DNA of 64,000 bases from Gracilariopsis chorda (taxonomy: Eukaryota > Rhodophyta > Florideophyceae > Gracilariales > Gracilariaceae), in NCBI GenBank assembly GCA_003194525.1, contig NBIV01000140.1, positions 144,529 through 208,528 of the forward strand. The letters are read 5' to 3'. The position numbers and the translations under genes were made by a program. Of the stretch, positions 31,601 through 57,960 are shown one piece after another. The stretch's first letter is position 1. Each line of letters opens with the position of its first letter. The notes beneath the pieces are model-generated. The model was not told where the DNA came from. It searched no databases and was given only the letters and a program-made list of their open reading frames with translations.

Positions 31601-31648
31601 CCGCTGCCACCTGGCACGAGCCACCCACCCAGGCTTGTCCCGTGGCGT

Positions 31649-32351: not shown

Positions 32352-32390
32352 GTACAGTGCGCTGCCTTTTTTATTGACAGCGCACTGTAC
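32352..32390. other. Perfect 13-bp inverted repeat
   Basis: GTACAGTGCGCTG (32352-32364) and CAGCGCACTGTAC (32378-32390) around a T-rich 13-base spacer. It could be a terminator-like RNA hairpin or a binding site. The stretch 32400-32838 that follows shows no convincing gene and is presumably the promoter region of the recombinase gene. Confidence 0.6.
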
Positions 32391-35478: not shown

Positions 35479-36009
35479 ATCTGGCATTGCAAGTATGGGA
35501 ATAGGGCTTGGGAATGACGCGCAGTACGCTTAGAACAGCTTATCCGTCGTCAGTGACGTGTGCGGAAAATAAATGAGACAGCATGGTTGATTTGGAGAGA
35601 TAGGATGTGCCAGCATTGTTGAGCGCAGTAATGAGTACTTCTATGCACTCTACAGAAGTGCATGAATGGATGTGGTCGTGAGCAAATACTTTCATAGGCA
35701 GTGAGTTGCGCTCAGCAACGGGATTTTATTGAATGATATAGCAAACGGTGGCAGAAGAAACAAAGTCTCGCACTGCAGGGGGTGTAGCCTGCGTCTCCAT
35801 CTGGGCCCTGTGCTCACGGTATACATACTGCACTCTGGCCAACATTACAGTCCACCCTTACAAACTTATAACATGGTGCAGAACATTCTGTAGGTCCTCG
35901 GCAGACATACAGAAGATATAACGGATTGTATGTCGTGGTCACGTGGGCAAGATGTCATGACGTCCACTCTTTCGCAGTCTCGCATTAATCACCCTTTGTC
36001 ATTTTGCAT
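35479..36009. other. Convergent intergenic region
   Basis: 530 bases between two genes that end toward each other. It holds an AATAAA polyadenylation signal at 35568-35573, 90 bases past the recombinase stop. Nothing else is recognised. Confidence 0.5.
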
Positions 36010-37623
36010 TTACTCTGAACGTTCGTATTCGCTCTCCTCTGAATCCGTGTCAGTACTCGACTGACTTGAACTTAAAGAATCCCTTTCTTCGTAATCGCTC
36101 CCTTCCTCCATATCCACCTCCCATACTTCTCCGAGACAAAGTGGGAATGGCAAAGGCTTCCCCATTACAAACTGAAAGTAGTAGTAAGGCACATCATCGA
36201 CGAAGCATTGTTCCTCCCCATGGATTCCCATCGAACTCACTCCATCTTCAACAACATCATCTTCACTAACCTTCGTCTTGTTCACGTTTGGTAACCGAAA
36301 AATGGGCGTTTTACGATAGGCTTCCAGCACCCCTTCCCTCCCCAACTGAAGGCTTGAAGCTGATTGAACTATTTGTAGCCGCGACTCTGTATTCATTGAA
36401 ACGTTAATTACGGATGGAATCGTCCCCACTATGCCCAACTCTTCTTGTTCGTCGTTACTGAAAAAGTCATTCCACTGTATGTAACGTACAGCAGATCTGT
36501 AGTCTGGCTCAAGGAAATCCGTGAAATTGGAGTATTCGTCGAGGTCTTCCGATTGGTAGGATGCCGATCTGCGCAAGAACACCATCTTCTCGTCTTCGGG
36601 TAGAGTCATACGTACAGCATGGATAAATACAACCACATCATCTGTTGAGTGAGCTCCTATACGAACGACGCATGTACTAGGAAGGGCAATACTACATCCA
36701 ATCCTTAGAAAGAACGTTTGCACGCGCTTGCTGTTCACACCCGCCCTGACCGGGGGTACCCACTCGTAGTAGTTACCTTTCTGCCCTTGCGTTGCACTGT
36801 GACCACGAACTACCTCCTCGGTTACAGTTAGATATATTCCTAGCTTCTCCAGCTTCTCTGGAAATAGTCCACTTGACCTACTTGGAAGCAGAGTATACAA
36901 AATGAACAAGGCCTCTTTGGGACATCCGTTCTCGCTCATGATTGTGTTGTTCCAGCAGTAGCTTTTCAAGGTCTGACCTTCTGTTGGAAACTTACCAGCT
37001 CTAGAATGAATGGTGCTGCGCCTGCGACACAAGGTAACTGATTCAATCGGAGCGTCTATGACGCGCAAGAAATCCTGCATTCCACATAGAGGCGGTAGGA
37101 TAACACAATATCGGAAACCACTCCATGTGTATACCTTGCTATCTGCAGCTCGTTTACCAGAATCCTCCGGTTTTACCTCCTTCTCATCACATCGCTTGCC
37201 TCTCTGACAAACGGTAGACAAAACATATTGGCGTGCGACGATCATGGATTCTAGTGTCTCGCACCTGCCTTTACCGCGGTGGTCTGTGAGGCGGACGAGC
37301 TTTGCGGTTGACTGTGGTCCCAAGTACGCTTTTTCCATCCGGAAAGGTGTATGAAGGGTAGATAGACCGCTTATGACGTCAAACTTCGTGGGCTCTAGGT
37401 ACTCCAGAATTTCTCCATATTCGCAGACGGTGAGGTTATGCATGCCCATTGAAAACCCAAACCCTTGCTGTAGACCACGGAACGATGAACGCAATATGTT
37501 CGTCTCTTTGCACGCATCCGTGTTCTTTTCATTCTCATTCCAGTTCACAAAGATTTCCAGAGGTTTCCTCTTCGTCCCTATGAAGTTCACCCATTCCTCC
37601 CTACTCTTCGATTTCCTTCCCAT
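36010..37623 (-). CDS. Protein of unknown family, 537 residues, intact
   Basis: An uninterrupted frame from ATG 37623 to TAA 36010, the only long gene of E1 without a stop. The N-terminus is basic (GRKSKSREEW), the middle is mixed globular sequence with several Cys, and the last ~45 residues are acidic and Ser-rich (EEGSDYEERD, SSSQSSTDTDSEESE), which suggests a nuclear or chromatin-bound protein. No domain is recognised. It is convergent with the recombinase gene and divergent from the ParB-like/Ulp1 gene (1 kb apart), so it is probably part of the same element. Confidence 0.7.
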   Translation of the reverse strand: MGRKSKSREEWVNFIGTKRKPLEIFVNWNENEKNTDACKETNILRSSFRGLQQGFGFSMGMHNLTVCEYGEILEYLEPTKFDVISGLSTLHTPFRMEKAYLGPQSTAKLVRLTDHRGKGRCETLESMIVARQYVLSTVCQRGKRCDEKEVKPEDSGKRAADSKVYTWSGFRYCVILPPLCGMQDFLRVIDAPIESVTLCRRRSTIHSRAGKFPTEGQTLKSYCWNNTIMSENGCPKEALFILYTLLPSRSSGLFPEKLEKLGIYLTVTEEVVRGHSATQGQKGNYYEWVPPVRAGVNSKRVQTFFLRIGCSIALPSTCVVRIGAHSTDDVVVFIHAVRMTLPEDEKMVFLRRSASYQSEDLDEYSNFTDFLEPDYRSAVRYIQWNDFFSNDEQEELGIVGTIPSVINVSMNTESRLQIVQSASSLQLGREGVLEAYRKTPIFRLPNVNKTKVSEDDVVEDGVSSMGIHGEEQCFVDDVPYYYFQFVMGKPLPFPLCLGEVWEVDMEEGSDYEERDSLSSSQSSTDTDSEESEYERSE

Positions 37624-38625
37624 GATACCCCAGGTGTGTAGATCTGAGACGGAGCAGGGAAAGTTGAACTTCGTGGTGCCTTGATAGTTCTCAGTTGGCT
37701 GAAGACGTCTTGTTTAAGTTCGTTGCAGATGTGTTCTTTACGCGCAGGATAGGGAAACAGAAAGTTAGACTTCTACGTATGTAGTGTGACTTTTCTCTCG
37801 GTTTAGAAGTTCACTTCGCGTTCGAGTGTTAGAGACGACGTTTCGGCGTAGGCTGATGTGGCGTTTTAGTTTTGTTGCTGCTGTGGTTCGGGAGTGTTGC
37901 CATAGAGCTGCGCGGAGGTGGAGATTGTTGGGAGAACTAAATGTGGTGGTGGTTGTAGCCATCGTTGATCATAATCTGGTTCGGAGTGGTGGTTTTAAAT
38001 GGGGAAAGATTCCCCCATTTCGGTAACAGTCGGTGTTTCAAAATGTTGTGCCCCGAATTACACTGGGGGCGACGCGCGGTGTAGATGATATGCTGTAGGA
38101 TGGGTGACGGTTCAAGTGACCGCTCGTGACCTATATGGTGGTGAGCTATGCACGTATAGTGACAACTTTTCTCCCCGATGGCGCGTGAATGGCCACAGAT
38201 TCTGACACGTCACATTGGCATACAGGGCGTACAGTGCACGGAGTTTCATTGGTCATGAACATCCGACATCCGCTGTGAGTACCGTTACTTGTGCAACAGC
38301 CTGGACACGTCCTCAGAGGTCCGATGGTGTGCAGTCCGTAAGGCCTGTGCTACTTTTTAATATTCTGTGATAAAAATTGCGGACAGGAGACACGCCCGCA
38401 TGGTTCACCGATGAGTACGTTGCATGCTGCGCGCGACCGTGACTGGCGATTTTTACGGGAGGGTAGGGGGAAAAGTGGGGGAATCTTTCCCCCACTTGCG
38501 CACTCATCAAGATTTCCCACTATTTGTACCTGCGCCGTATAGCGGGGCTTCATAGCTTCCAGCATAGGCAAAACGTCGTCCCTATTTCGTACTCTTCCAA
38601 ACCTGGGTAAGTACTCTTCGCCTTC
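37624..38625. promoter_or_regulatory. Divergent intergenic region with two palindromes
   Basis: This 1-kb region separates the unknown gene (-) from the ParB-like/Ulp1 gene (+) and presumably holds both promoters. Palindrome site 2 is AAATGGGG (37997-38004) with CCCCCATTT (38012-38020) around AAAGATT. Site 3 is AAGTGGGGG (38473-38481) with CCCCCACTT (38489-38497) around AATCTTT. The two spacers are reverse complements, so the sites are inverted relative to each other. No gene is seen. Confidence 0.5.
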
Positions 38626-41600
38626 ATGATGCTGTCGTCTACCACTGAACAAACAAAGACCTCCATTTCCACTCAGATCAAGCGTCGAATCGAGCAGGGA
38701 AACGGTTCACCGACACGCTATGCCAGCCTGGATATGTTCATAGGGCCCTATTTCGGACGCGCAACCTCCTTTCTACGCCTACAGACTGTGCGTAAAGACA
38801 TCGGCGCTCCACAACGATTCCATAGTTGGGAACATCTTCTCGTCGTACAGGGTACCTCGCCAGCTACAAAGGGGAAACTGGTTGTCATTGGGGGTGGTCA
38901 TCGGCTCCTATCATCTACTCGAGTTCTACATACGCTAATTCTCCCATACAGGACGGTATCATTTGACGGACTGGGTGTCGATGGAAAAGATCTGGATTTA
39001 TTTGCGCATAAAGGGTTGATTGCGTTTTATGTTGAGGTCATTGAGCCCCGGCCCGAAAAGTATGGCTTCATGGAGCAGGTTGCGCTGTACGGTGATTTGA
39101 AGGAGCGCTGGCGGCGAATGGAAAGGGACCGGGTCTCACTGCTCAGGGGTAGAAAGGCAGCTCCTCAGGCAATGTCGCACAGGAAGCTGTATGAATTCTA
39201 CGAAACTACGGTTGACGGAGCTGGTTCGAGTTCAAGGTGGGCTATTGAGTTTCTCATGGATGTGAAGCAGTCAACAAGGCGTCACTACATGTCCAGCGCT
39301 GATCGTCTTTTAGAAGCTGGTGTTGTCCCATACCTCTCTCACCTGGAGAGAATTGGCGTTGCGGTGTTCAACAAGTCATCACTCAACTCAGTAAGGAATT
39401 GGTCCGTCGAGAAGATCAGAAAGGTGACGGATTTGTGGAAGGTTCGACGGGAGACGGGTGTCAAGGTTCATTACTTATTCTCCGATCGCATTGGGCGGGA
39501 GGTAGATGGCAAAAGCCGCGGACGAAAAGGTACTGTTCTTCCATCACAATAGCCATCCAAAAGAGCCGAGAATCCAACGTTTGAAGCTGTACAATCGTGT
39601 CCCGCAGTAGCGTTACATGGAGATGCTGATTGTGAAACAAAAGCCCGTCGAGCTGCATCGCACCAGAATTCCCCCAATCTAGTACCTGCACATGCAGGTT
39701 CTCCAATTGGATCCATTCCACACCCTATCACACCGACTTCTATGACTCTGCCTCTAACAATCAGCAGTAAGCTTCCTGCACGCCCGGAATTGGCGAATGT
39801 AGCAGCCCGCCATGGAACCTCAACGAGTGATGCCCGTCTGCATAAGCCCATACTGAGTCCCACGGCTCCGTACCTTGCGTCGTCGAAAGAGATCTCTCCG
39901 CTTCACATACCCCAGGATTCAAAAACCCTTCATCCTTCATCCTACGCCGAAAACAGTATCTATCTACACTCGCCGTGTACAAAGCGTAATGACCCAGCGA
40001 GAATAATTACAGCCACGAACTATGCAACATCGTCGCGTCCAACATGCCCCGGTGACGCCACACCGCCTGGAACCTTAACAAATCCGATTTCCTTGCAAAG
40101 AGAACCCCCGTCAATGGCAACACCAGGCGAAGTCTGTGCAACATCGGAGCCCACCGCACCACCGCAACAGGAATCGCCACGTCGAACAGGTTTGGAATCA
40201 GCACCAGCGCATCCAATATTGACTCAAGCAACACCTACGCAAGAGAAGTCATTGCTTTCCCCACCGCCACACCACAAGTCCTCGCCTGGCGACACCATGG
40301 TTCCGACATTGGAAGTCTTGAATCCACTGCGTGAGATACACTCTTGCGGAGTTCCACAGCGCGTTGTATCCGCGTTGGCGAGGTCGAAATGGGTTGGAGA
40401 GTCGGGCATCTTGGCCACCACTGGAGTTGTACAGAATATACTTCAGAATCTGGTGAAAAAGAAAGAAGAGATGCGTGCCGATGTTTTCGACGTTGACCTG
40501 GAGGTGGTTATGAAGGTGGCACGGCGCTTTTTGCGAAAGCTTAACGAAACCGGGGGCTATACCAATAGGGATTTGTCACAGGTCATGCGGGAAGTGTCCA
40601 TTGAGATACAAGCAGTAGATGAAAAGGATATCAAGCTTGTGGTCAACGGTGGTGCTTTGAGAAGGAAGATGACACTTCTTGAAGAGGATATAGATCCAAT
40701 CCGAAAGTCTCGCCTGGCTACAGATACATCGGTTATGTTCACACTGTCGTTTTTGACGAAATGGACTAGCGGTTGTATTGAAAGATGTACCTTGGTCGAC
40801 TCCATAAGAACTCAGGGGTGGTGGGAGAAGGATCTCTCCGCTGACAAGAACAGTCTACTGGCACTCACGAAAGTATTCGCTCGACAAGGGACGTCATTCA
40901 TCACGGCATGTGAAGAAGTGTGGAAGACAGAATTGTGTTTCATGCCGATTTGCGGAGGGGGCCATTGGTCTCTAGTTGTTATTCTGAATCTGAAGTACCT
41001 GTTCGAGGAGTTGGAATGTTTGCCAGACAGGAAGGGGATTCGTAGGGAATCGGGTCGTCGAGCAAGAGTGTACTTTGTGGACAGCATAGGAATGTCGTCT
41101 CCCCACGCAGTTACGTATGTCAATTTATACTACTATCTGTGCGCCAGCTACCCAGGATTAAGGAAACCGTCAGTTGAGCATATCATGGAGAACGTATCGA
41201 GTCACCAGTGTCGTTTTATGCTACAGGAGTCTTCGGAGTGTGGGTTTTATGTCGCATATCACGTTTCTGTGTTAAATCGCGCACTTGCTGAACTACTGTT
41301 TGAAACACCTGCGCGTGTTCAGGACTTTATAAGGGAAGTGCATTCCTCTTACGACTTCTTGCAATACAAAAGCGAAGTCCAGAAACGTCTCGAATACCTT
41401 CTGGAGAAGTATTATGCGGGGGGGAAGCATGTGTTCGAGATGCAACCGCTGTTGTGGAGTTCATGCACCGGAGAGGGCGGGGTTTTAGACGCATCACCGC
41501 ATGCTGACAAAGGAAAACATTGTGAACGGAACAAAGAAGATTTAGCAGAGTGCGGAAGAAATGCTGCACTGCCACGTCCTGCTGCAAAGAAATTGCGTAA

Positions 41601-42225
41601 GAGACCGGCGTCTGCAGGTAGCGAAGCGCGGCCGAAGAAGCTTCGACTTACAGAAGGGGTTCCCGTTTCAGTAGATGGCTCTTATGACGGGTCTGTTAGG
41701 AAGACGCTGGACAGGAATTCAACCAAGATGGCACGGGAAGGGGCAAGTACTGAAGAGGGTGGTTGTAACAGCCAACACGAGCAGAATCGTATTGCTGTAA
41801 GAAAATGTTGTGGTGGCGTTGAATGTGACAGTAAGCACGCATGGATATATAGTATCATACAAGGCATTATGGAGAAGGTGGTCGAGAGGGGTGATCCTGT
41901 TGTGGGTACGTGTGCTGGAGAGGGAGTGTTTTTGAAAAATGAGGAACATACAGGTGCTCCAAAGCCAGGAGGAGGTAATGTTTTGCCAATGCACTGCAGC
42001 ATGCAGTGTGTAAAGTCTCAAGAAGACGTCGGAAGTTGGAAGGGTACGGAAAGGGCTGGAGAAGCAAGCCCTCGGATTGTGCTCTTAAGGGCTGTCCAAG
42101 AGGCATTGGTGTTGGAGAATGGGGTTAAGGACAAGGATATTAGACGGGAGTGGGATGCTTGTAAGAACAGGATATACGAACTGATGCTTAGGATGAAGAC
42201 GGAGCAACGTGAAACGCATTGTTAG
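38626..42225 (+). pseudogene. ParB-like / Ulp1 protease fusion, E1 family, one in-frame stop
   Basis: From ATG 38626 the frame has 1200 codons with one TAG at 39550-39552 (codon 309). Residues ~30-125 include VVIGGGHRLL, like the ParB nuclease-fold GxxR region, and align well with the gene at 58111-61479. A Ser/Pro/Thr-rich linker (~310-570) follows. Residues ~690-900 are a C48 (Ulp1/SENP) cysteine protease: GGGHWSL with H780, YFVDSIG with D819, Q867, ECGFYVAYH with C872. A C-terminal helix (DIRREWDACKNRIYELMLRMK) is shared with the E2 gene. Ulp1-type proteases cut SUMO-like modifiers or polyproteins; ParB folds bind DNA or nucleotides. The joint role is unknown. The stop separates the two halves exactly at the linker. 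Confidence 0.75.
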
Positions 42226-42607
42226 GTTCATCCGTCACTGCCGGTCTTCAATTGAAATGCAATGGTGATGAACGAATCCTTCCGCAGGGGAGGAACGGTC
42301 GTGTATGAAAGACACTTCGGCCTCAAAGATTGTCAGCCAATGGTTTCATACTCAGTGGCACGTAAGTGGGCGTCTCATGAGTTCTATTTATGGCCTCAAA
42401 TGTACTAAGAACATTCGTAAAGCTGCAGCTTATGTTTTCCTCTTGGATCTTTAGTGCTCATATAGGGTGAAGGCTTTTATATGGGTTTAGTCATCGTGGA
42501 TTTAGACTGCTTATTGCATGCGTGGGAGTGAGGTAGTTCTTAAAGTAGGAAACCGAAAGTACAGAGGGATACGGCAGATGTTTATCATGCAATGCAGATG
42601 ATGCTGA
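42226..42607. other. Noncoding right end of E1
   Basis: About 380 bases after the fusion gene stop with no recognisable gene, leading directly into two telomeric repeats. Confidence 0.5.
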
Positions 42608-42627
42608 TTTTAGGGGGTTTTAGGGGG
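42608..42627 (+). repeat. Telomeric seam between E1 and E2
   Basis: Two perfect tandem TTTTAGGGGG units (42608-42617, 42618-42627) in the orientation of the terminal telomere. Three bases later E2 starts at CTACTAGTATG. Confidence 0.85.
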
Positions 42628-42631
42628 TACC

Positions 42632-42714
42632 TACTAGTATGACTTTGTCAGCATCGAGCGGTTTGGCACCATATGGTGCATGTCAGTGATTCGAGTGCAC
42701 TGACGTGTGCACTC
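42632..42714. other. Palindrome cluster at the left end of E2
   Basis: TACTAGTA (42632-42639) sits at the very tip. GCACCATATGGTGC (42666-42679) is a perfect palindrome. GAGTGCAC (42693-42700) and GTGCACTC (42707-42714) are 8-bp arms around the 6-base spacer TGACGT. GTCAGTG also pairs with CACTGAC across 42682-42704. All are conserved in E3. They resemble binding sites for a recombinase or replication protein. From 42715 to 43053 nothing further is recognised. Confidence 0.55.
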
Positions 42715-43053
42715 AAATCTACACTGCATTCAAGGTATGTTGAATTTTGGGTTAAGTTTGCGGACTCACTGGAACGCCGTAAATTTTACAATTTTTTGGC
42801 GGACTACAGGCTATACAGTGAAATGGCGATCTGATTGCTCCGTTCGAGTGTAGCCTGCGTCACACTACCAAAACGTTGGAACCGGGCTCCTCACTTTGAT
42901 TTGATTCATGCAAGGAATACCCATCACGGTGAAGTGTAGAGAGTAGTTGCATTGAAGTATTGTAAGTAAACGTTGTGTCGTACATCTTACGCGTTGAAAC
43001 AAACTAAAAGCTCCAAAGATTCTCTGCGTCCAAGAGCTCAATGTAGGGGTATC

Positions 43054-46000
43054 TCATAAATCTTTCTGTTGGCTATCCATCCTTACCTCCCACTTTCTTC
43101 TCCACCAACTTGCCAACCTTAGCAGATTCGGTACGATATCACCAGTACGTGAGAGCCAGGTAGCCCAGAGTCTATCATTATCTTGGCTTCCTGCAGTGGA
43201 AAGCTTTGTCAAGTTTGTGTGATAAGCTGCGCTGTCATTATCGCAGAACAGATCCCGTACAATATGCCTTCTCGTTCCCTCACTGCATCTCCATAACAGC
43301 CATCCAAGGTCCCTTAACCGTACAAGTTCGCATGTAGAAGCAAATCCCATTGCTTCACTGTGGACCTTTAATCCTTGACAATACCCGATACCACATTTGT
43401 AGCAGCAACCCTGGGCCACCGGAACCAAGTTGCGACAGGCACTGAATCTGTGGCGATCAGAATGGCATCGAAAGCACCGTCTACGTGACAGAGAGCAATC
43501 ATGACCATCCTTAATGTTTTTGTTAGCCAGAACCAAGCAAGCCAGACAGTCACCTTCGAAATCTAGAGCTACTGACTCCGCCTCCCGGATTAGCAGCTCT
43601 ACTGATTGTGGCGGGGAGGGCGTTGGAACTGCAGATCCCCAGCTGCAAGGATCTGCAACTGCAGAGCTTTCCCTTTCTGCCTCTTCAGGTTTCGAAGTTC
43701 GCTGAATAATGCAGTCCTGATTTGCGTGTTTCTTATTCTTCTCCGAGATGAATAGATGGGAAGTGACCTTGTGAGAGTTATCTAACGCAGGGCTTTGGGA
43801 TGTTTCAAGTAGGTTTTGAGTACCAAGCGTTTTTGGTTCCGCATTAATAGCTCTACGCGGAGGCCCATTGTAATGATGAAGGCAGACATCACAAGGCTCA
43901 GACTCAGGATCGAAAATGCAGACTCCCCGGCCTTCTCCATCCATTGCCGCATACAGGGAGTGTTTTCGACATGATTGTGAATCCTGAAACCAATTCCGCG
44001 CTTCTAGCCAACCAAATAACTTGCGGTAGGCGTCTTCTGTAAAACTTTCGGTTGCTTCTTTCTCCAGAGTTGATGTAAGATGGTCGGCATCTCTTTTTGA
44101 AAAGAAAACCACACATCGGGCAAGAAGTCCATCACGGCCCGCTCTACCCGCTTCTTGCGCGTAGTCTACAAGTGATGAGGAGCCACCCAAATGCATAACG
44201 ATGCGCACATTCGGAGCGTCAACTCCTGCTCCAAAAGCCGACGTACACACCATGATTCCAATGTCAATGACTGGCATACAGTCGTTTGTGAGGTTTGAGG
44301 TTGATGAAAATGAGGTCCACTGCTTGTGGGCTGCCATACGTGCATTCTCGGACATGCCAGCGTGGTAAGCAATAACTGAAATCTTTTTTTCGTAATTTAG
44401 TTCTCCATTGCACGTACTGCCGGAAGGAAGTGCAACATACGAAGCGTAAAGAACTTCGTACGCTTTTTCCACGATATGGCGCTGCATCGCATACACCAGA
44501 ACTCGAAAAGAGTATTTAGACTCATTCCCATATTCTAAGATATTAGTACAGACTCCATCCATCTCCAACTTCATTTCCGTTGTAAGTGCCTGCAGAAGAT
44601 CTCGAATCGTGCTCCTAAACCTTCCCGATCTGTCTCGGGAGGTTTCGCTGATATTCTCCCTGAGGCTTCTCACTTCAAAACGCAAGTTGCAACGCACAGT
44701 GGGGGCTTTGAAAATTACAGCAGATCGAATTCCGTGTTGAAGCAAAAGATTCATTCGATCCCGAGGAGGAAGCGTTGCTGTCAATAATACTCTAGGTATT
44801 GAAGTTGGTATGCACATGAGACCATATTTGATGTCCCGTAAACTTTGTCGGAAAGAAGACCACATAGAGACCAGATGCGCCTCCTCGACTACAATCCGAG
44901 CCAGACGTTTCTGGTTTGTGAGTCGGAGCACGAGTTCCCGGAAGCGAGGGTCACGGACATGCTCCGGGAGCACGACGTAAATGTCAGCGAACTCACTTTG
45001 GTTCCTCCTCCCGAGCCCAGTTTGAACCCTTAGTCTGCAACTCGTCGCCCGTTCAACGTACTCTGTAGAGAGTGAGACTAGAGACACAATGATAATTGTG
45101 GAATGGAGAGATCTTTCGATGAAAACCGGAAGCATCACACATATCTTCTTCCCAGAACCAGTTGGCATTATGACCAATGTGTTATTCTGACGTTCCGCAA
45201 TGGCAATAGTTACTCGAAACTGTGTATATGTTCGGAACGTGGCCTTCTGATCCTGGAACATCTGTCGGAGATCATTTAAGAACGTGCCAATAAGATGATC
45301 GTAGTTTCGGTCATCTCCATTGAAGAGTGTTACACCGTTTTCAGCGGTGGATTGTGTTTGACTTCTTTTGATGTTGTGGTAATTGAGAGATATATCGCTT
45401 GGGAGTACAACCATATCATTGGCATTACTTGGAGCACTACATGGTGTTTCTGCCTCAACCGAGGATGCCAATATGCCATGCCTGGGAGAGTCCACTGCTA
45501 GTTTGGATCTTTTCGCTGGAGGGGAAGGCATTTCTTTTTCTTGAGCTTCCAAGTATAGAGCATTTCCAATTCTGGGTCCATTTTGTAGCCGCGGCCTGCA
45601 ATTCTTATCTAAATCTAGTAAACGTTGCCAGTTTGTTGACCATTCTCGGTATCTGTGAATGGTTGAATGAGTTATATCCTGCAATACCTCACGGGTGCGA
45701 GCATATGCTCTTTCAGCGGTAGACTTGCTGTGACCAGCCTGCAAATGTCCAAGGTTGCATAGCTCTTCCTGCATCTCGTCCATGATACCTGTTGCTTGCT
45801 TAAAACCTACATTGGGAACGATAACTGCTGTGAAATGGCGATAATCGTTGAACAGAAGCTGTGTTTCCTTGAAAATCAGTCTTTGCGAAATACAAGAGCG
45901 GATTCGATCCTCCTTGAATGGTTCGCGTTTGTTCACAAAGAGACAGTTAGCATGCACAGATGCAACGTCAGAGCCATATAGTGCATCGATAATGACCGAT

Positions 46001-48603
46001 TCTAGTGGGCGGAATAATGAAAGATATAAGAGCATAATCTCGCTGGTGGTAGGGTCTGGAAAACGAGGAATGGGTTTCAAATACCCTTTCAGAGATCGGG
46101 TTTTGCTCCACCGGGTGAGAAGCATCACCCTGCATTGAGAGACAAACACATTTCTAGGGCCATACTGATCATTGGCAACCTTTAAACGCGCGAGCTCCGG
46201 GGCCCGGGCTGGAGATCCAGAAGAGATGTGCACACAAAAAAGAAGAAGCTCTTGGAACCTTTGCCAAGATGCCAACCAGGACAGAGCTCTAGACTTGTAC
46301 ATACGTACTCCTTGAACGCTAAGAAAATTCCCAATTTCTTCTCGTTGGAATACGTTTGATGAGGCAGAGTGCTTGGATGTCACGATCGGGTTGTACCTGA
46401 CTGATTGAGCTGGCTTCTTTAACGCCTGAAGGAGATATAAAGCGTTTGATTGTACCCAGGAACAAGTGTTTCCATGATTTAAGAATGAAAACCCAAATGC
46501 ATTACATCGTAGATCCTCTGTTAGTGAGTGCAATGTGGTCAGGAAAGATTCGGAAATGGATTTCCGAGCAAAAGTTTCTGATGAAGAAGTTCATTTAGCT
46601 CATTGTGCGCCCTTTTCACCAAGAGCCCGATATCACCAAGTGAGACATGTACCTCTTTCACAATTCCACAGTTAACATGTGAAGTACAGTTCTCGAAAGA
46701 AACATCTAGATCTTCTTTCTCAACCAAGCTCATAGCCAAGTCCAAAATATGACGTACAAAGGATGCCGAAGAAATCCTGTCCAAGGAAAACGTAATTCCT
46801 AATCAGATCTTCTTCATCAAAAGTACTAGAACACATAACTTCATTTTCCTCAGTACAGGTCCCGTTGTGATCTCCCTCGTTTTTCAAACGTTTTGCATGG
46901 TCGTATTCATGAGCAGCTGCTACAGAAACACAGTACTGGATGGCTGCCAGGGTACCCGTTATTTCCCAGGCTTCTGCAAAACGAATCACACCGCTTTTGT
47001 GATGAACACTTGAGCAGCAAAAGAAGTTTTTGACAGCAAGTTTGTCTTCAGAAGCGAAGATCGATTGTGGAACAAGAAGAAGTTCTTTCACCAAACGGCG
47101 GAATGTTTCATATCTTTCTGCATCGCAATGATCGTAATAAACCCTTTCGTACTGAATAACTGATATCTTTTCACCTCTTGCTACCACATAACTTGGCAGT
47201 TCACGAATGACTGTCATATAATCCGATCCAGAAGAAAAAACTTTAGCACTGCCAAGAGAAGGAACCCGATCTCTTGATTTCTTCACAAACATTACCATAC
47301 GAGCAAGCACCTTGGCATACTTGTAGGCTGTGCTCTGTTCTACTACAGTGAGAGCCCCTGCTTGGCTCCTGTCTCGAATGTTGAGCCATCTAAGTACGCA
47401 AAATGGGATATCGACAGTGATTGAAGCAACCTGTGTCAAATATTGTAGAGAATCTTGAAGCACAAGACCTACAACGGCATCCTCAATTTGGTTCGACGCC
47501 CCAGAATCGATTTGAAGAGATGTTAGTGTATTGGCTTCCTCCATTGTGATTCCTCTTTTCTGAAGCACATTATCAAAACGTGAAAGAGCTATAAAGGTGC
47601 TTTTCATCGGATTATCCAGACCCTTGGTCCCATTATTGATAAGAACAGCATCTTGGCAGCTCCCGAAGAACTTCTTGGTGATGGTTTCTGCACACTCCTT
47701 AAAGTAGGCACCCTCATCCTGCCCGACAACCGCGGGACCTGTATGAACTTTCGAGAAAGGTTCTCTGCCGGATATTTGAGCTCGAGAAACCTGGACCTTA
47801 CTTTCCTTCAAGGAAATTGCCTGAGTATCGGAGCTATCATTGGCGTGTAGTGAATGCAAAATCGTCACCTCACCAATTGGAGGCTTTGAAGTCACGGGAA
47901 ATAACCTGCGAAGAGAGCCATGAAAAATCGTCTGGAGCCTGATTGTTCCTTTCCTATGTACCATTTCCATGAGATTGTGCCCCGTGCCAACGTTATGTAT
48001 ACATTGGAGATGCTTTTGCAGAGAACGCTTGTCTGTGTAACAAGAAGGACAGCAAGGGCAACTATGTCCATCCAGAATGGTTAAACCGTGCAGTGGATCT
48101 AAGAACTGGCGCTCGTGATCCAGAATTACCAATGGCCTTATCGCATTCTGAGTGTTTGAACTTTCCATGCCAGAACGAAGCGATGGGGCAGAATCATATT
48201 TGTCCCACAGGGAACCTTCTTGCATGATTGACTGCATATAGGTTTGTTTCGATAAAAGCAGTTTTGCAGTATCGACTGCAACGTCGCTAGTAGTACCATG
48301 AATCCCCTGCAGATGTCTCTGTATGGCACGAGCAGAGGGTATCCCACAAGAGCATCCTAAGCAAACGATGAAAAGGCCCATGGACTGCAATTCAAATGCG
48401 AGGGGTTTGTCGCCACAGATGCTGCCCTTGGGAGGAGAATGATTCTCTAGATCAGAAGAGATCATAACCTGCATTTCGGTGGAAGGAAGTGGATCGATTA
48501 ATTTAGAACCCTTGCTGTGAGTACCTAGAATCTTTCTCATGAAGTAATGCGCTAGTATTGAGCGGTTTGATTTCAGGCTTGAGTTGAAGATACCAGTGAG
48601 CAA
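43054..48603 (-). pseudogene. OrsD/RecQ-type helicase, E2 copy, frameshifted
   Basis: Same protein as 51339-57017, broken by 1-base indels near 46535, 46785 and 48604, each seen by comparison with E3. The Walker A site reads GSGKK (45145-45150) where E3 has GSGKT, which would abolish normal ATP binding. It keeps CAA where E3 has the internal stop, so the helicase domain (43054-46533) is one open frame of 1159 codons. RecQ features: VVEEAH, TATLPP, SAFGAGVDAPN, QEAGRAGRDG, then a Cys-rich zinc-binding tail. Confidence 0.85.
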
Positions 48604-49674
48604 ATATGGAGCTGCAGCAGACCTAATGAGCGAAGCATACGGTACAGATGAATATGTTTTCCAAACCGCAAGTACATGAAATAGATGGAGGTGGCAATCA
48701 ATATTAGAAGACGTCGAGAAGGGGATGTCACTGTTCTCGTTCTCCCGCCCAGGTCATCATGGTGAGGGAATGCGTTTGCAAAAGTAACCGCATGAGAACG
48801 GCCAAATCATCCGTCCTACATCACTGGGAAAGACCCAGTGCAGATTGTACGTCTGAGGTCCCCCAAACGAAAGAAATCGACTGATTCTCAGACCAAAACT
48901 GCAGTTTGTCTACGACTGCGGTCTCCTGTCGACGGTTATACTAGGAGGTTGGGGATTGCGCTGTATCAGATTAGATCCCGGGTCCGCAGCGTATGTGCCG
49001 TATACCAAAAATCCTGAAAAACACCAAAGAAGTCTCACCTATCGCAATGTAACATCTTTGTCATCATCCCTTTCATCAGTGTAGTTCGATACGTTGACTG
49101 TATGTGTCTGCGCTTCGTAGCCTTCTTTATTGGACCATATCAGATCCAATTACTCCTGAGATCCCCGTTGAAATCAAGCCATAAGACCACAAATTCTGTG
49201 AAGCTACGAATTTGAAGATTTTGAGAGCAATGGTTGGATGGTTGAATCTGGTTTCAGTTAGTAACAGCAGAAAAAAAACAGTAAAATAGAAATCAAAAGT
49301 CCATTTGCGACATCCATTACGGGTGTCCCACCATTTCAAATGTTCTCTATAGGTAGAATAGTCAGTTTAGGCAGTCTCTGAGGATTACGCCATTCTTAAA
49401 GCAGAAGCCCTATAACCGATGTTTAAAAGGGCTCAAGATTAGTGGGATGTTCAAATCGCTTCTCATATCATCACTGTACGTCCATCAATAATATTACAAC
49501 AGTCGTGTACTCCGTTGACTCCAAGCCGAGACTAAAAACCATGAATAAAGTGCAGAACAGAAAGCGGTATGTGTAAAGTCGGTTTATCGGGACGTTTTGA
49601 AGTATAGTGTGGCGATTACGTACTGCAATTTAAGCTCCAAATGCTTGCATAGGGTTTTCGAAGACACAGAATCG
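48604..49674. other. Intergenic region of E2
   Basis: About 1.07 kb between the helicase and the fusion gene, conserved in E3. It should hold the fusion gene 3' end and the helicase promoter. A GTGAGA donor-like sequence on the - strand near 49037 and a TTTTTCAG acceptor-like sequence 25 bases further on may be splice sites of a helicase 5' exon, but the structure cannot be settled. No other gene is seen. Confidence 0.4.
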
Positions 49675-50908
49675 TTAAGCAGATTTCCGTTCCTTCATCT
49701 TCCCAACCAGTTCACGCATCTTTAGCATGCATGACATCCATTCTTTTTTCAGGTCCAAGTCGGATTCCCGCTGCACCAAAGAATGACCTTCTTCGACTAT
49801 GATAGTGTACTCCATGTTTCTTTCTCGTTGTTGGTGATGATCTGTTGGGCCTGATGTCATCTTTAGCTCTTTCGTAACATCCTGTGGAGAGGAAGATAGG
49901 GAGGTAGTTGGAACGGCGCTTGTTTGTGGGCTGCGGAAACTCTGATGCGAAACATTTGGGATGGGACAAGGTGAAGAACGAGAACATATTGACTGGAATT
50001 TGGAGATAATGAGTGGGGTCATTTTCTGCATGGCGTTTTCCATGGATTCATTAGATTCTATTGCAACCATATGCATTTTGATAACGGCATCTTCTAAGAT
50101 CTTCGAAACAATTACCTCTCTCTTGCATATCAATTGCGAACCACTTCGAGCACAATTCATGGCCACTAAGCCATTAATGACGCCAACAAGCGCGTGTCGC
50201 ATTGAGGAGAACTGAGTCGCAGGTTTTGGTACCACCGGCGGGTGAGATATCACAGTTACCGCTTGTGGTTGTGAAGGTGTGTGTTTAGGTTGTTGTTGGA
50301 ATCCATGAGCGGTTGAGACTGCAGAGGTTGACGACGGCATATGTGCAATTGGTGATTGCTTTGCGGCATGCGAGAGAGGTATGGATCTGTGTAGTAAGTT
50401 CGGAACGGGTGCTGCGTTATGCGGTTTTGATGAACTGCGTGCAGCTGGAGAGATTACTGTTGTCGGTATGGGGTCTGAATCAGGGAGTCGAGTACCTCGT
50501 GACGGGCTGTGTGCAGCAGGAGGGAGTGCAGAGCGTAGTGGAGGGTTCAGAAGTGGGGCTTTCGGAGCCTGTGATGGAGTACTTGGTGGAGCTGCTGATA
50601 GTGGTTCTGGTCTTGGATGAGCTATTGTGGATGCTGAGGTTGTGGGGTGTTGATCCGCTGAGTCCTGCTTATATTTATGTGGATTGTTACATGGTGAAGA
50701 GGGTGATATCTGTCTCAGGAGAGAAGAGGGCCCAAATCCTTGTGCGCCAATAAATAATTGAGGCTCAAGCTGTGAACCGGGGCTCCGTTGTGATGATGGT
50801 TGTAGTGGTAGCGTGGAGCGTAGAGACGTTCGAAGAGCCATATGGGTGTGATGCAGACCAATCAAAGCATCAGAAACGGAGATCTGTTTGGGCCGTTTGG
50901 GGAGTTTA
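49675..50908 (-). pseudogene. ParB-like / Ulp1 fusion, E2 copy, C-terminal part only
   Basis: Only the C-terminal ~400 codons remain: a Ser/Pro-rich linker, a conserved segment (MRHALVGVINGLVAMN), and a charged terminal helix (DLKKEWMSCMLKMRELVGKM) ending at TAA 49675. The ParB-like and protease domains are missing because the element was cut at 50908. It has CGA where the E3 copy has TGA (58111), so it shows the original C-terminus. Confidence 0.85.
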
Positions 50909-50915
50909 GGGGTTT
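50905..50915 (+). repeat. Telomeric seam between E2 and E3
   Basis: TTTAGGGGTTT. The first four bases can also belong to E2 (its homologue continues TTTATCC at 59191), so the join used 3-4 bases shared with telomeric repeat. E3 begins at 50916. Confidence 0.8.
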
Positions 50916-50916
50916 C

Positions 50917-50999
50917 TACTAGTATGACTTTGTCAGCATCAAGCGGTTTGGCACCATATGGTGCATGTCAGTGATTCGAGTGCACTGACGTGTGCACTC
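50917..50999. other. Palindrome cluster at the left end of E3
   Basis: Same palindromes as in E2: TACTAGTA (50917-50924), GCACCATATGGTGC (50951-50964), and the GAGTGCAC / GTGCACTC arms around TGACGT (50978-50999). Confidence 0.55.
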
Positions 51000-51338
51000 A
51001 AATCTACACTGCATTCAAGGTATGTTGAATTTTGGGTTAAGTTTGCGGACTCACTGGAACGCCGTAAATTTTACAATGTTTTGGCGGACTACAGGCTATA
51101 CAGTGAAATGGCGGTCTGATTGCTCCGTTCGAGTGTAGCCTGCGTCACACTACCAAAACGTTGGAACCGGGCTCCTCACTTTGATTTGATTCATGCAAGG
51201 AATACCCATCACGGAGAAGTGTAGACAGTAGTTGCATTGAAGTAATGTAAGTTAACGTTGTGTCCTACATCTTATGCGTTGAAACAAACTAAAAGCTCCA
51301 AAGATTCTCTGCGTCCAAGAGCTCAATGTAGGGGTATC

Positions 51339-54300
51339 TCATATATCTTTCTGTTGGCTATCCATCCTTACCTCCCACTTTCTTCTCCACCAACTTGCCA
51401 ACCTTAGCAGATTCGGTACGGTATCACCAGTACGTGAGAGCCAGGTAGCCCAGAGTCTATCATTATCTTGGCTTCCTGCCGTGGAAAGCTTTGTCAAGTT
51501 TGTGTGATAAGCTGCGCTGTCATTATCGCAGAACAGATCCCGTACAATATGCCTTCTCGTCCCCTCACTGCATCTCCATAACAGCCATCCAAGGTCCCTT
51601 AACCGTACAAGTTTGCATGTAGAAGCAAATCCCATTGCTTCACTGTGGACCTTTAATCCTTGACAATACCCGATACCACATTTGTAGCAGCAACCCTGGG
51701 CCACCGGAACAAAGTTGCGACAGGCACTGAATCTGTGGCGATCAGAATGGCATCGAAAGCACCGTCTACGTGACAGAGAGCAATCATGACCATCCTTAAT
51801 GTTTTTGTTAGCCAGAACCAAGCAAGCCAGACAGTCACCTTCGAAATCTAGAGCTACTGACTCCGCCTCCCGGATTAGCAGCTCTACTGATTGTGGCGGG
51901 GAGGGCGTTGGAACTGCAGATCCCCAGCTGCAAGGATCTGCAATTGCAAAGCTTGCCCTTTCTGCCTCTTCAGGTTTCGAAGTTCGCTGAATAATGCAGT
52001 CCTGATTTGCGTGTTTCTTATTCTTCTCCGAGATGAATAGATGGGAAGTGACCTTGTGAGAGTTATCTATCGCAGGGCTTTGGGATGTTTCAAGTAGGTT
52101 TTGAGTACCAAGCGTTTTTGGTTCCGCATTAATAGCTCTACGCGGAGGCCCATTGCAATGATGAAGGCAGACATCACAAGGCTCAGACTCAGGATCGAAA
52201 ATGCAGACTCCCGGGCCTTCTCCATCCATTGCCGCATACAGGGAGTGTTTTCGACATGATTGTGAATCCTGAAACCAATTCCGCGCTTCTAGCCAACCAA
52301 ATAACTTGCGGTAGGCGTCTTCTGTAAAACTTTCGGTTGCTTCTTTCTCCAGAGTTGATGTAAGATGGTCGGCATCTCTTTTTGAAAAGAGAACCACACA
52401 TCGGGCAAGAAGTCCATCACGGCCCGCTCTACCCGCTTCTTGCGCGTAGTCTACAAGTGATGAGGAGCCACCCAAATGCATAACGATGCGCACATTCGGA
52501 GCGTCAACTCCTGCTCCAAAAGCCGACGTACACACCATGATTCCAATGTCAATGACTGGCATACAGTCGTTTGTGAGGTTTGAGGTTGATGAAAATGAGG
52601 TCCACTGCTTGTGGGCTGCCATACGTGCATTCTCGGACATGCCAGCGTGGTAAGCAATAACTGAAATCTTTTTTTCGTAATTTAGTTCTCCATTGCACGT
52701 ACTGCCGGAAGGAAGTGCAACATACGAAGCGTAAAGAACTTCGTACGCTTTTTCCACGATATGGCGCTGCATCGCATACACCAGAACTCGAAAAGAGTAT
52801 TTAGACTCATTCCCATATTCTAAGAGATTAGTACAGACTCCATCCATCTCCAACTTCATTTCCGTTGTAAGTGCCTGCAGAAGATCTCGAATCGTGCTCC
52901 AGAACCTTCCCGATGGGTCTCGGGAGGTTTCACTGATATTCTCCTTGAGGCTTCTCACTTCAAAACGCAAGTTGCGACGCACAGTGGGGGCTTTGAAAAG
53001 TACAGCAGATCGAATTCCGTGTTAAAGCAAAAGATTCATTCGATCCCGAGGAGGAAGCGTTGCTGTCAATAATACTCTAGGTATTGAAGTTGGTATGCAC
53101 ATGAGACCATATTTGATGTCCCGTAAACTTTGTCGGAAAGAAGACCACATAGAGACCAGATGCGCCTCCTCGACTACAATCCGAGCCAGACGTTTCTGGT
53201 TTGTGAGTCGGAGCACGAGTTCCCGGAAGCGAGGGTCAGGGACATGCTCCGGGAGCACGACGTAAATGTCAGCGAACTCACTTTGGTTCCTCCTCCCGAG
53301 CCCAGTTTGAACACTTAGTCTGCAACTCGTCGCCCGTTCAACGTACTCTGTAGAGAGTGAAACAAGAGGCACAATGATAATTGTGGACTTGAGAGATCTT
53401 TCGATGAAAACCGGAAGCATCACACATATCGTCTTCCCAGAACCAGTTGGCATTATGACCAATGTGTTATTCTGACGTTCAGCAATGGCAATTGTTACTC
53501 GAAATTGTGTATATGTTCGGAACGTGGCCTTCTGATCCTGGAACATCTGTCGGAGATCATTTAAGAACGTGCCAATAAGATGATCGTAGTTTCGGTCATC
53601 TCCATTGAAGAGTGTTACACCGTTTTCAGCGGTGGATTGTGTTTGACTTCTTTTGATGTTGTGGTAATTGAGAGATATATCGCTTGGGAGTACAACCATA
53701 TCATTGGCACTACTTGGAGCACTACATGGTGTTTCTGCTTTAACCGAGGATGCCAATATGCCATGCCTGGGAGAGTCCACTGCTAGTTTGGATCTTTTCG
53801 CTGAAGGGGAAGGCATTTCTTTTTCTTGAGCTTCGAAGTCTAGAGCATTTCCAATTCTGGGTCCAGTTTGTAGCCGCGGCCTGCAATTCTTATCTAAATC
53901 TAGTAAACGGTGCCAGGTTTTTGACCATTCTCGGTATCTGTGAAGGGTTGAATGAGTTATATCCTGCAATACCTCACGGGTGCGAGCATATGCTCTTTCA
54001 GCGGTAGACTTGCTGTGACCAGCCTGCAAATGTCCAAGGTTGCATAGCTCTTCCTGCATCTCGTCCATGATACCTGTCGCTTGGTTAAAACCTACATTGG
54101 GAACCATACCTGCTGTGAAATGGCGATAATCGTTAAACAGCAGCTGTTTTTCCTTGAAAATCAGTCTTTGCGAAATACAAGAGCGGATTCGATCCTCCTT
54201 GAATGGTTCGCCTTTGTTCACAAAGAGACGGTTAGCATGCACAGATGCGACGTCAGAGCCATATAGTGCATCGATAATGACCGATTCTAGTGGGCGGAAT

Positions 54301-57017
54301 AATGAAAGATATAAGAGCAAAATTTCGCTGGTGGTAGGGTCTGGAAAACGAGGAATGGGTTTCGAATACCCTTTGAGAGATCGGGTTTTGCTCCACCGGG
54401 TGAGAAGCATCACCCTGCATTGAGAGACAAACACATTTCTAGGGCCATACTGATCATTGGCAACCTTTAAACGCGCGAGCTCCGGGGCCCGGGCTGGAGA
54501 TCCAGAAGAGATGTGCACACAAAAAAGAAGAAGCTCTTGGAACCTTTGACAAGATGCCAACCAGGACAGAGCTCTAGACTTGTACATACGTACTCCTTGA
54601 ACGCTAAGAAAATTCCCAATTTCTTCTGGTTGGAATACATTTGACGAGGCAGAGTGCTTGGATGTCACGATCGGGTTGTACCTGACTGATTGAGCTGGCT
54701 TCTTTAACGCCTGAAGGAGATATAAAACGTTTGATTGTACCCAGGAACAAGTGTTTCCATGATTTAAGAATGAAAACCCAAATGCATTACATCGTAGATC
54801 ATCTGTTAGTGAGTGCAATGTGGTCAAGAAAGAATTCGGAAATGGATTTCCGAGCAAAAGATTCTGATGAAGAAGTTCATTTAGCTCATTGTGCGCCCTT
54901 TTCACCAAGAGACCGATATCACCAAGTGAGACATGTACCTCTTTCACAATTCCACAGTTAACATGTGAAGTACAGTTCTCGAAAGAAACATCTAGATCTT
55001 CTTTCGCAACCAAGCTCATAGCCAAGTCCAAAATATGACGTACAAAGGATGCCGAAGAATTCCTGTCCAAGGAAACGTAGTTCCTAATCAGATCTTCTTC
55101 ATCAAAAGTACTAGAACACATAACTTCTTTTCCCTCAGTACAGGTCCCGTTCTGATCTCCCTCGTTTTTCAAACGTTTTGCATGGTCGTATTCATGAGCA
55201 GCTGCTACAGAAACACAGTACTGGATGGCTGCCAGGGTACCCGTTATTTCCCAGGCTTCTGCAAAACGAATCACACCGCTTTTGTGAAGAACACTTGAGC
55301 AGCAAACGAAGTTTTTGACAGCAAGTTTGTCTTCAGAAGCGAAGATCGATTGTGAAACAAGAAGAAGTTCTTTCACCAAACGGCGGAATGTTTCATATCT
55401 TTCTGCATCGCGATGACCATAATAAACCCTTTCGTACTGAATACCTGATATCTTTTTACCTCTTGCTACCACATCACTTGCCAGTTCACGAATGACTTTC
55501 ATATAATCCGATCCAGAAGAAAACACTTTAGCACTGCAAAGAGAAGGAACCCGATCTCTTGATTTCTTCACAAACATTACCATACGAGCAAGCAACTTGG
55601 CATACTTGTAGGCTGTGTTCTGTTCTACTACAGTGAGAGCCCCTCCTTGGCTCCTGTCCCGAATGTTGAGCCATCTAAGTACGCAAAATGGGATATCGAC
55701 AGTGATTGAAGCAACCTGTGTCAAATATTGTAGAGAATCTTGAAGCACAAGACCTACAACGGCATCCTCAATTTGGTTCGACCCCCCAGAATCGAGTTGA
55801 AGAGATGTTAGTGTATTGGCTTCCTCCATTGTGATTCCTCTTTTCTGAAGCACATTATCAAAACGTGAAAGAACTATAAAGGTGCTTTTCATCCGATTAT
55901 ACAGACTCTTGGTCCCATTATTGATAAGAACAGCATCTTGGCAGCTCCCGAAGAACTTCTTGGTGATGTTTTCTGCACACTCCTTAAAGTAGGCACCCTC
56001 ATCCTGTCCGACGACCGCGGGACCTGTATGAACTTTCGAGAAAGGTTCTCTGCCGGATATTTGAGCTCGAGAAACCTGGACCTTACTCTCCTTCAAGGAA
56101 ATTGCCTGAGTATCGGAACTATCATTGGCGTGTAATGAATGCAAAATCGTCACCTCACCAATTGGAGGCTTTGAAGTCACGGGAAATAACCTGCGAAGAG
56201 AGCCATGAAAAATCGTCTGGAGCCTGATTGTTCCTTTCCTATGTACCATTTCCATGAGATTGTGCCCCGTGCCAACGTTATGTATACATTGGAGATGCTT
56301 TTGCAGAGAACGCTTGTCTGTGTAACAAGAAGGACAGCAAGGGCAACTATGTCCATCCAGAATGGTTAAACCGTGCAGTGGATCTAAGAACTGGCGCTCG
56401 TGATCCAGAATTACCAATGGCCTTATCGCATTCTGAGTGTTTGAACTTTCCATACCAGAACGAAGCGATGGGGCAGAATCATATTTGTCCCACAGGGAAC
56501 CTTTTTGCATGATTGACTGCATATAGGTTTGTTTCGATAAAAGCAGTTTTGCAGTATCGACTGCAACGTCGCTAGTAGTACCATGAATCTCCTGCAGATG
56601 TCTCTGTATGGCACGAGCCGAGGGTAGCCCACAAGAGCATTCTAAGCAAACGATGAAAAGGCCCATGGATTGCAATCCAAATGCGAGGGGTTTGTCGCCA
56701 CAGATGCTGCCCTTGGGAGGAAAATGATTCTCTAGATCAGAAGAGATCATAACCTGCATTTCGGTGGAAGGAAGTGGATCGATTAATTTAGAACCCTTGC
56801 TGTGAGTACCTAGAATCTTTCTCATGAAGTAATGCGCTAGTATTGAGCGGTTTGATTTCAGACTTGAGTTGAAGATACCAGTGAGCAGAATATGGAGCTG
56901 CAGCAGACCTAATGAGCGAAGCATATGGTACAGATGAATATGTTTTCCAAACCGCAAGTACATGAAATAGATGGAGGTGGCAATCAATATTAGAAGACGT
57001 CGAGAAGGGGATGTCAC
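51339..57017 (-). pseudogene. OrsD/RecQ-type helicase, E3 copy, one in-frame stop
   Basis: The frame is open for 1893 codons apart from TAA at 53022-53024 (codon 1332), CAA in E2. The first ATG is codon 19 (56961-56963); the true start is uncertain. Two OrsD-like zinc fingers: C124/C127/H140/H145, and CPCCPSC with H241/H246 preceded by LHGLTILDGH. A ~900-residue region of unknown function follows. Helicase: PTGSGKT with K1195, VVEEAH (1283), TATLPP, then after the stop AYHAGMS, SAFGAGVDAPN, QEAGRAGRDG. The C-terminus has a Cys-rich zinc region (CLACL, CFRCHSDRHRFSAC, CCYKCG). RecQ helicases unwind DNA 3'-5'; related subtelomeric genes are known in fungi. The single nonsense change looks recent. 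Confidence 0.85.
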
Positions 57018-57960
57018 TGTTCTCGTTCTCCCGCCCAGGTCATCATGGTGAGGGAATGCGTTTGCAAAAGTAACCGCATGAGAACGGCCAAATCATCCGT
57101 CCTACATCACTGGGAAAGACCCAGTGCAGATTGTACGTCTGAGGTCCCCCAAACGAAAGAAATCGACTGATTCTCAGACCAAAACTGCAGTTTGTCTACG
57201 ACTGCGGTCTCCTGTCGACGGTTATACTAGGAGGTTGGGGATTGCGCTGTATCAGATTAGATCCCGGGTCCGCAGCGTATGTGCCGTATACCAAAAATCC
57301 TGAAAAACACCAAAAAAATCTCACCTGTCGCAATGTAACATCTTTGTCATCATCCCTTTCACCAGTGTAATTCGATACGTTGACTGTATGTGTCTGCGCT
57401 TCGTAGCCTCCTTTATTGGAACATATCAGATCCAATTACTCCTGAGCTCCCCGTTGAAATCAAGCCATAAGACCACAAATTCTGTGAAGCTACGAATTTG
57501 AAGATTTTGAGAGCAATGGTTGGATGGTTGAATCTGGTTTCAGTTAGTAACAGCAGAAACAAAACAGTAAAATAGAAATCAAAAGTCCATTCGCGACATC
57601 CATTACGGGTGTCCCACCATTTCAAATGTTCTCTATAGGTAGGATAGTCAGTTTAGGCAGTCTCTGAGGATTACGCCATTCTTAAAGCAGAAGCCCTATA
57701 ACCGATGTTTAAAAGGGCTCAAGATTAGTGGGATGTTCAAATCGCTTCTCATATCATCACTGTACGTCCATCAATAATATTACAACAGTCGTGTACTCCG
57801 TTGACTCCAAGCCGAGACTAAAAACCATGAATAAAGTGCAGAACAGAAAGCAGTATGTGTAAAGTCGGTTTATCGGGACGTTTTGAAGTATAGTGTGGCG
57901 ATTACGTACTGCACTTTAAGCTCCAAATGCTTGCATAGGGTTTTCGTAGACACAGAATCG
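57018..57960. other. Intergenic region of E3
   Basis: Homologous to 48732-49674. It has the same donor-like GTGAGA (- strand, near 57322). A frame at 57196-57435 is open here but closed in E2 by CAG to TAG, and it has no ATG. It may be a 5' exon of the helicase; unproven. Confidence 0.4.

Follow-up and report, generated by a model that had tools for sequence, protein, structure and literature searches.

A stack of broken elements at a chromosome end of the red alga Gracilariopsis chorda, with similar stacks at several other ends of its genome

Introduction

Yeast Y' elements are subtelomeric, helicase-bearing blocks with short telomeric tracts between them that spread among chromosome ends, and PMC4222662 describes their spread by break-induced replication. 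In three further papers RecQ-type helicases, the fungal TLH, are placed at chromosome ends in genomes where telomeric retroelements occur as well (PMC7473861, PMC4522978, PMC12857005). Athena-type Penelope-like elements (PLEs) and terminons are described in sections of PMC6431247 and PMC5537684 as having a fixed inner end, an outer end truncated by telomeric repeats, a stacked arrangement and several genes; the literature used for comparison also includes a part of PMC3212892. Titles and abstract openings of open-licence literature, a sample that most subscription papers fall outside, contained no elements bearing tyrosine recombinase (YR) or RecQ genes that are stacked like the ones reported here. 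These form the end of contig NBIV01000140.1 (C140, 208,528 bases) of Gracilariopsis chorda (assembly GCA_003194525.1), whose final 64 kb (positions 144,529 to 208,528; hereafter the window) was analysed against the whole genome (91.3 Mb, 1,081 contigs). The chromosome end is a stack of broken elements, here named E1, E2 and E3 (the last two being copies of one family, E), and similar stacks are found at several other ends of the genome.

Results

Layers of the chromosome end

From left to right, the window runs from a 9.8-kb tandem array through E1, a telomeric seam, E2, a second seam and E3 to a terminal telomere of TTTT(T)AGGGG units:

1..31271, no strand assigned: tandem array with a 9.8-kb unit, the last unit broken at 31271 (window self-BLAST)
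31272..42607, + strand: E1 element, fixed inner end GGGTTTTCACG, outer end at the seam
31272..31600, + strand: inner end of E1, G+T-rich and telomere-like, with the 14-bp palindrome TCTATAGCTATAGA
42608..42627, + strand: telomeric seam, two units followed by TAC (direct sequence)
42631..50908, - strand: E2 element, coding strand inward, broken in its ParB-Ulp1 gene, 98% identical to E3
42631..42780, - strand: inner terminus of E, with palindromes TACTAGTA and GCACCATATGGTGC and strong RNA hairpins on the coding strand
50905..50915, + strand: seam TTTAGGGGTTT, of which TTTA is common to E2 and GGGGTTT (50909-50915) is added
50916..63267, - strand: E3 element, the longest copy, 12.35 kb (window and genome DNA searches)
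63268..64000, + strand: terminal telomere TTTT(T)AGGGG at the contig end, start position approximate

The same logic is repeated on contigs C182, C247, C343, C345, C379, C497, C584 and C907. A telomere-pattern search of the genome gave 115 matches, the best 100 of which were considered, and the sequence near the ends of some contigs was examined. In the body of the window before the telomere, TTTAGGGG is found seven times on the + strand, where 1.15 are expected (60 block shuffles), with two further occurrences on the - strand; each array unit contributes one of the + strand positions (four in all), and the other three mark the two boundaries (42609, 42619 and 50905).

The inner end of E is a defined terminus

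Within the window, E2 (42610-50908) aligns to 50896-59194 at 98% identity, and a DNA search found the left end of E at no fewer than six places in the genome (E2, E3, C907, C282, C95 and C345). If the preceding C is disregarded, all six copies have an identical first base, and each has its outer side facing whichever contig end is closer. The C907 and C282 copies share a flank and differ by no substitution in 3,430 compared sites (13 gap columns), so that the six copies represent five independent junctions.

The preliminary description of this locus held that E2 and E3 begin with the same base directly after telomeric sequence and that each element of the stack starts at such a seam. The common first base is borne out, CTACTAGTATG beginning at both 42631 and 50916, and the outer break of E2 does coincide with a telomeric seam. 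E3 follows TTTAGGGGTTT directly, whereas E2 begins three bases past TTTTAGGGGGTTTTAGGGGG, with TAC in between (TA, if the C at 42630 is counted as element). The seam between E2 and E3 is telomeric in part: only GGGGTTT is added DNA, whereas TTTA is element sequence that matches the telomere unit. As a general rule the description fails. It had named left ends of E joined to non-telomeric DNA as the evidence against it, and the genome-wide search found them at three of the five independent junctions (C907/C282, counted as one event, C95 and C345), with the first base unchanged; telomeric joints are found at the other two, E2 and E3. The C345 flank does contain two degenerate telomeric units, some 30-50 bp inward of E, but none at the joint itself. 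Furthermore, the E3 joint (TTT/CTACTAG, the slash marking the joint here and below) and the E2 joint (TAC/CTACTAG) are not copies of each other. Since the same first base recurs on unrelated flanks, the inner end of E is a defined terminus.

The RNA of this terminus is strongly folded (z -3.96); its DNA fold is not unusual (z -1.68). A perfect 14-bp palindrome is present at the inner ends of both E and E1 (window 42631-42780 and 31272-31371), a length reached by about 1.2% of background 100-nt windows.

Outer breaks and exchange between ends

The outer end of E is variable. It lies at 255 bp in C345, where a stub of E1 caps it, at 3447 bp in C282 and C907 (telomeric caps, counted as one event), at 8279 bp in C95 and E2, and at 12352 bp in E3, which carries the terminal telomere and whose outermost 1.8 kb has no other copy in the genome by DNA search. 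At position 8279 the sequence is GAGTTTATCC in the longer E3 and GAGTTTAGGGG in the broken copies; the break falls after the telomere-like TTTA of ...GTTTA, which suits priming by telomerase. C95 is capped here by about 1 kb of telomere, while E2 has seven telomeric bases followed by E3. Thus, C95 carries the break of E2 with a telomere and no next element, and shows the state that preceded the addition of E3.

The C95 copy is a mosaic. Its first 3.4 kb are nearer to E3 (0.93%, against 2.03% to E2) and the remainder is nearer to E2 (1.04%, against 1.81% to E3), with a Fisher p of 8e-9 when the switch is placed at 4 kb, a choice made once the data had been seen. Chromosome ends therefore exchange sequence by recombination. 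Independent breaks at 8279 in E2 and C95 were considered and ruled out, the outer half of C95 being E2-like.

Junctions with and without the next element

For eight junctions the genome also contains an uninterrupted or telomere-capped form of the site, so that breakage before attachment is visible. The break of E2 is matched by the capped end of C95, as described above. E1 of the window is matched by the intact array units, which run CAACGTTTTG/CGTCAG where the broken last unit runs CAACGTTTTG/GGGTTTTCACG, that is, into E1. In self-comparison of the window, the remainder of the broken unit is absent beyond E1, which argues for terminal addition and not for an insertion that keeps both flanks. 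In C345, E1 sits on E broken at 255 bp. E1 of C182 sits on another element, X, and in C173 X is broken and followed by TTTAGGG and then E1; intact X is found in C345. E1 of C584 starts at TGTGGG, where C627 reads on as TTTTAGGGGTTTTTAG (TGTGGGTTTTAGGGG) into about 120 bp of other DNA and a terminal telomere. In C907/C282, E stands on a high-copy dispersed repeat, in which GGGCGTC/CTGCTCGAG has become GGGCGTC/CTACTAGTATG (both repeat copies compared), and in C95 on another dispersed repeat, in which GCTGAC/CTCATATG has become GCTGAC/CTACTAGTATG (one of the three repeat copies compared reaches the joint). A preference of E for the termini of dispersed repeats was entertained and dropped, since flank alignments necessarily stop at the junction.

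The E1 family

A genome search with the YR-like protein of E1 gave 63 matches. A tally by eye of the matches of at least 390 bits on contigs longer than 50 kb (shorter contigs being left out) comprises 17 copies on 13 contigs, every one of them oriented toward the nearer contig end; C173 has weaker fragments in its interior (101-114 kb) on the opposite strand, and matches at 23-40% identity fall on other contigs. On C243, C458, C453, C702 and C375 there are proteins mostly 25-30% like that of E1, several of which follow one another on a single contig at intervals of about 3 kb and in alternating orientation, and these constitute a separate family.

We compared 18 E1 junctions, namely the left ends of 15 copies (C565, which starts inside the element, being dropped) together with the window, C345, C379 (in which only 27 bp of E1 align) and a second start in C182. 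TTTTCAC is present at the joint in all 18 cases. GGG precedes it in 17 (once with an extra T), C345 having GTG; TAGGG(G) is found in eight and TTTAGGG(G) in six. The first 329 bases of E1 have a G+T content of 0.696 and are telomere-like in strand sense; none of 629 windows of the window sequence is as rich. Short E1 stubs ending in telomere or seam occur in C345 (112 bp), C182 (about 265 bp) and C379 (58 bp), also as a piece in C247, and the G+T-rich, telomere-like inner end may account for them.

The scheme of the preliminary description, in which an end breaks, is healed by telomerase and receives a new element, over and over, is well supported at E2/E3 by C95, by the break after ...GTTTA and by a telomerase RNA-binding domain (TERT) in the genome (PF12009, 5.3e-28). 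Much of the E1 family is likewise consistent with it, given the GGG and TTTAGGG(G) counts, but the three non-telomeric E junctions show that it is not general. The seams that it listed in the array (623, 10444, 20266 and 30053) are telomeric, but each is one telomeric unit within the tandem unit, near chance level; being one unit copied with the tandem unit, they amount to a single weak independent event.

Genes of E and E1

All open reading frames (ORFs) of at least 200 aa in E2 and E3 are on the - strand and thus point away from the chromosome end; the last one ends 423 bp before the junction. The genes are as follows:

43054..48540, - strand: E2 RecQ-type helicase ORF and OrsD-like ORF, frame interrupted (Pfam), with a YR-like region recognized by eye
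51339..52859, - strand: second half of the E3 helicase, 506 aa in a separate frame (Helicase_C 4.8e-10)
53022..56963, - strand: E3 ORF of 1313 aa, an OrsD-like/YR-like region followed by the DEAD half of the helicase (DEAD 4e-16)
58111..61479, - strand: E3 ORF of 1122 aa with ParB-like and Ulp1-related domains, by homology to E1 genes
32839..35478, + strand: E1 YR-like protein, frame broken (582 + 296 aa), motifs by eye
36010..37623, - strand: E1 ORF of 537 aa, no family match
38626..39552, + strand: E1 ORF labelled ParB-like by eye and related to the E3 protein over the first third of the latter
39742..42225, + strand: E1 Ulp1-type cysteine protease ORF (Peptidase_C48, E 1.5e-4, over the cut-off)

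In E2, Pfam recognized DEAD (2.5e-12) and Helicase_C (1.5e-9), with OrsD (0.006) below the cut-off; the NCBIfam model recQ_fam stayed below its cut-off in two homologs of the helicase. The YR-like region of E, placed between the OrsD match and the helicase domains, has the motifs SGSPARGTE, DYRNF and AGHxxxTAExxYA, seen by eye in E3 and, with small changes, in six homologs. Likewise by eye, the E1 protein, which has open frames of up to 961 aa in other copies, shows GGGQRPQAYARLQ, MTLRASYATSM and GTYMAAY. On these motifs we regard both proteins as tyrosine recombinase-like. The 1122-aa ORF had no direct Pfam match, and the ParB-like ORF of E1, 39% identical to residues 3-306 of the E3 protein, matched no family in profile searches. 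On C627, C378, C96 and C70, related ParB-Ulp1 genes are followed on the same strand by a related helicase, but at a distance of about 12-24 kb (1.2 kb in E3), and in C627, the one of these that was examined, the intervening DNA has no ORF longer than 300 aa; the two genes may there belong to separate elements.

Other layers at chromosome ends

Elements that we take to be Penelope-like from their motifs begin after telomeric seams in C907, C343, C247 and C497. Their coding strand points inward where the ORF was examined (C907 and C247), and Pfam found RVT_1 over the cut-off and no other domain; the C247 protein had no match in PDB. The array unit carries a LINE-like (long interspersed nuclear element-like) endonuclease and reverse transcriptase (RT) on the - strand, in an ORF matching RVT_1 and Exo_endo_phos (Pfam), and Penelope-like pieces on the + strand that are 74% identical in DNA to the C907 copy, whose ORF matches RVT_1. 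The reading direction of these pieces (window 1912-4908) is toward the chromosome end, whereas the telomere-attached PLEs of C907 and C247 read the other way. A 1.7-kb unit also recurs, in tandem with a few telomeric repeats between copies in C379 and C406, and in C497 the end of this unit and a seam are followed by a PLE. No hammerhead ribozyme was found in the window, nor in the C907 PLE, which gave a chance mir-365 match only, so the test does not discriminate. Five telomeric units lie 24 kb inside C277 (about 968-1017 of the piece 23600-25600), and both flanks are non-telomeric and match none of the element families examined.

Discussion

How the layers may have been added

We propose that the outermost element loses its distal part and that the break often gains a few telomerase repeats, more readily at T-rich or telomere-like points; both steps can be seen because counterpart sites exist. 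A new copy would then be joined through its inner terminus (CTACTAGTATG or CCTACTAGTATG for E, GGGTTTTCACG for E1), either to the telomeric nub or directly to broken DNA, and would run to the new chromosome terminus, which gains a telomere. The exact terminus is observed for E and E1 alike. As to the chemistry, we favour a terminus-specific reaction by the YR-like protein of the element itself; judged by its motifs, a recombinase acting at palindromic termini would cover both families. Homologous (break-induced) recombination, as for yeast Y', would account for later spread and reshuffling of whole ends, with the RecQ-type helicase perhaps helping in resection or strand invasion. We regard this combination of layered loss and re-capping, terminus-specific joining by an element recombinase and later homologous recombination as about evenly balanced between being right and being wrong. 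A bolder form, in which E and E1 are end-capping DNA elements whose recombinase, perhaps telomere-resolvase-like, joins the palindromic inner terminus to any exposed end while the outer end stays open and is kept as a telomere, seems to us a rather long shot.

Several observations weigh against this explanation. The YR-like regions of E and E1 had no match in Pfam, PDB, NCBIfam or PHROG, their alignment by hhalign to lambda Int and FimB was non-significant, and the comparison of A1 with A2 in the YR profile work gave no match. AlphaFold2 models of the two regions, built from the window sequence only, had mean predicted local distance difference test (pLDDT) scores of 34 and 39 and were not used. 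No second, outer terminus was found for E or E1. At the C907/C282 and C95 joints host and E share CT (CCT, if the element starts with CC), as is also expected from plain microhomology joining; at C584 the stretch common to host and E1 is GGGTTTT, in keeping with joining driven by homology; and the polarity of E fits RNA-templated attachment as well.

The alternative that survives best, although we think it unlikely, is pure break-induced replication of the Y' kind, in which a short end with a telomeric nub would pair with a telomeric tract lying internally next to a donor element and copy that element and its telomere with no transposition enzyme. It readily explains E1, with the telomere-like residue at its joints and the shared tract at C584, and the mosaic C95 copy that carries the break of E2, in line with the described spread of Y'. 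It does not explain E on non-telomeric DNA at a constant base: the joints in C95, C907 and C345 have no telomeric repeat yet the same first base, and the E3 joint differs from that of E2.

More doubtful still is RNA-templated attachment, by which E RNA would be reverse transcribed onto the chromosome 3' end by a Penelope-like RT or by telomerase in trans. A fixed 3' end inside and variable 5' truncation outside recall Athena/terminons and HeT-A; the inward ORFs, the strongly folded 3' end of the E RNA and the telomere-attached PLEs of the same polarity in this genome all agree with it. Pfam, at its limited sensitivity, found no RT in the scanned ORFs of E and E1 (the 388-aa ORF of E2 being scanned in its longer E3 form), but this is a weak point, since Pfam also gave no match for the broken PLE pieces of the array. 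E joints have neither a poly(A) tract nor a telomere complement, and in E1, whose polarity is opposite, the inner end is just as fixed. That unrelated subtelomeric pieces were chained through telomeric repeats during assembly is very improbable: the stack is known from the assembly alone and contig C140 ends in it, but C95 has the identical break point with a different inner flank, and stacking recurs on the eight contigs listed above.

Relation to known systems

The stack of E and E1 is a variant related to Y', TLH and terminons. Like Y', E carries a helicase gene (DEAD, Helicase_C) and its ends exchange sequence, as C95 shows; a telomeric tract between blocks is present at E2 and E3 but lacking at the inner joint of the other three independent junctions. 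Unlike in Y', several unrelated families are stacked here, E also starts at an exact base on non-telomeric breaks, and there are YR-like, ParB-like and Ulp1-related genes. In description, the RecQ-type helicase next to the telomere recalls TLH, but in E its neighbour is an OrsD-like/YR-like region, and the element that carries both has a defined inner end and a ParB-Ulp1 gene. Athena and terminons resemble E in polarity and truncation, and PLEs sit on telomeric seams in this genome too; the differences are that E and E1 have no RT detected by Pfam, that only two of five E joints are telomeric and that E1 is of opposite polarity. Cryptons offer a parallel in the YR-like protein as candidate enzyme, with R-H-R-Y motifs seen by eye and no profile support, but in place of short direct repeats at both ends there is one inner terminus and an open, variable outer end.

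Meaning for the chromosome ends of G. chorda

The chromosome ends of G. chorda offer a readable record of breakage and re-capping in a eukaryote that retains a telomerase gene, with telomere-capped and element-capped versions of one break side by side. Multi-gene elements in which no RT was detected behave here much like telomeric retroelements. If E and E1 do cap ends, this would be an alternative to healing by telomerase, and with this material the idea that DNA can be attached to broken chromosome ends by a recombinase becomes open to test.
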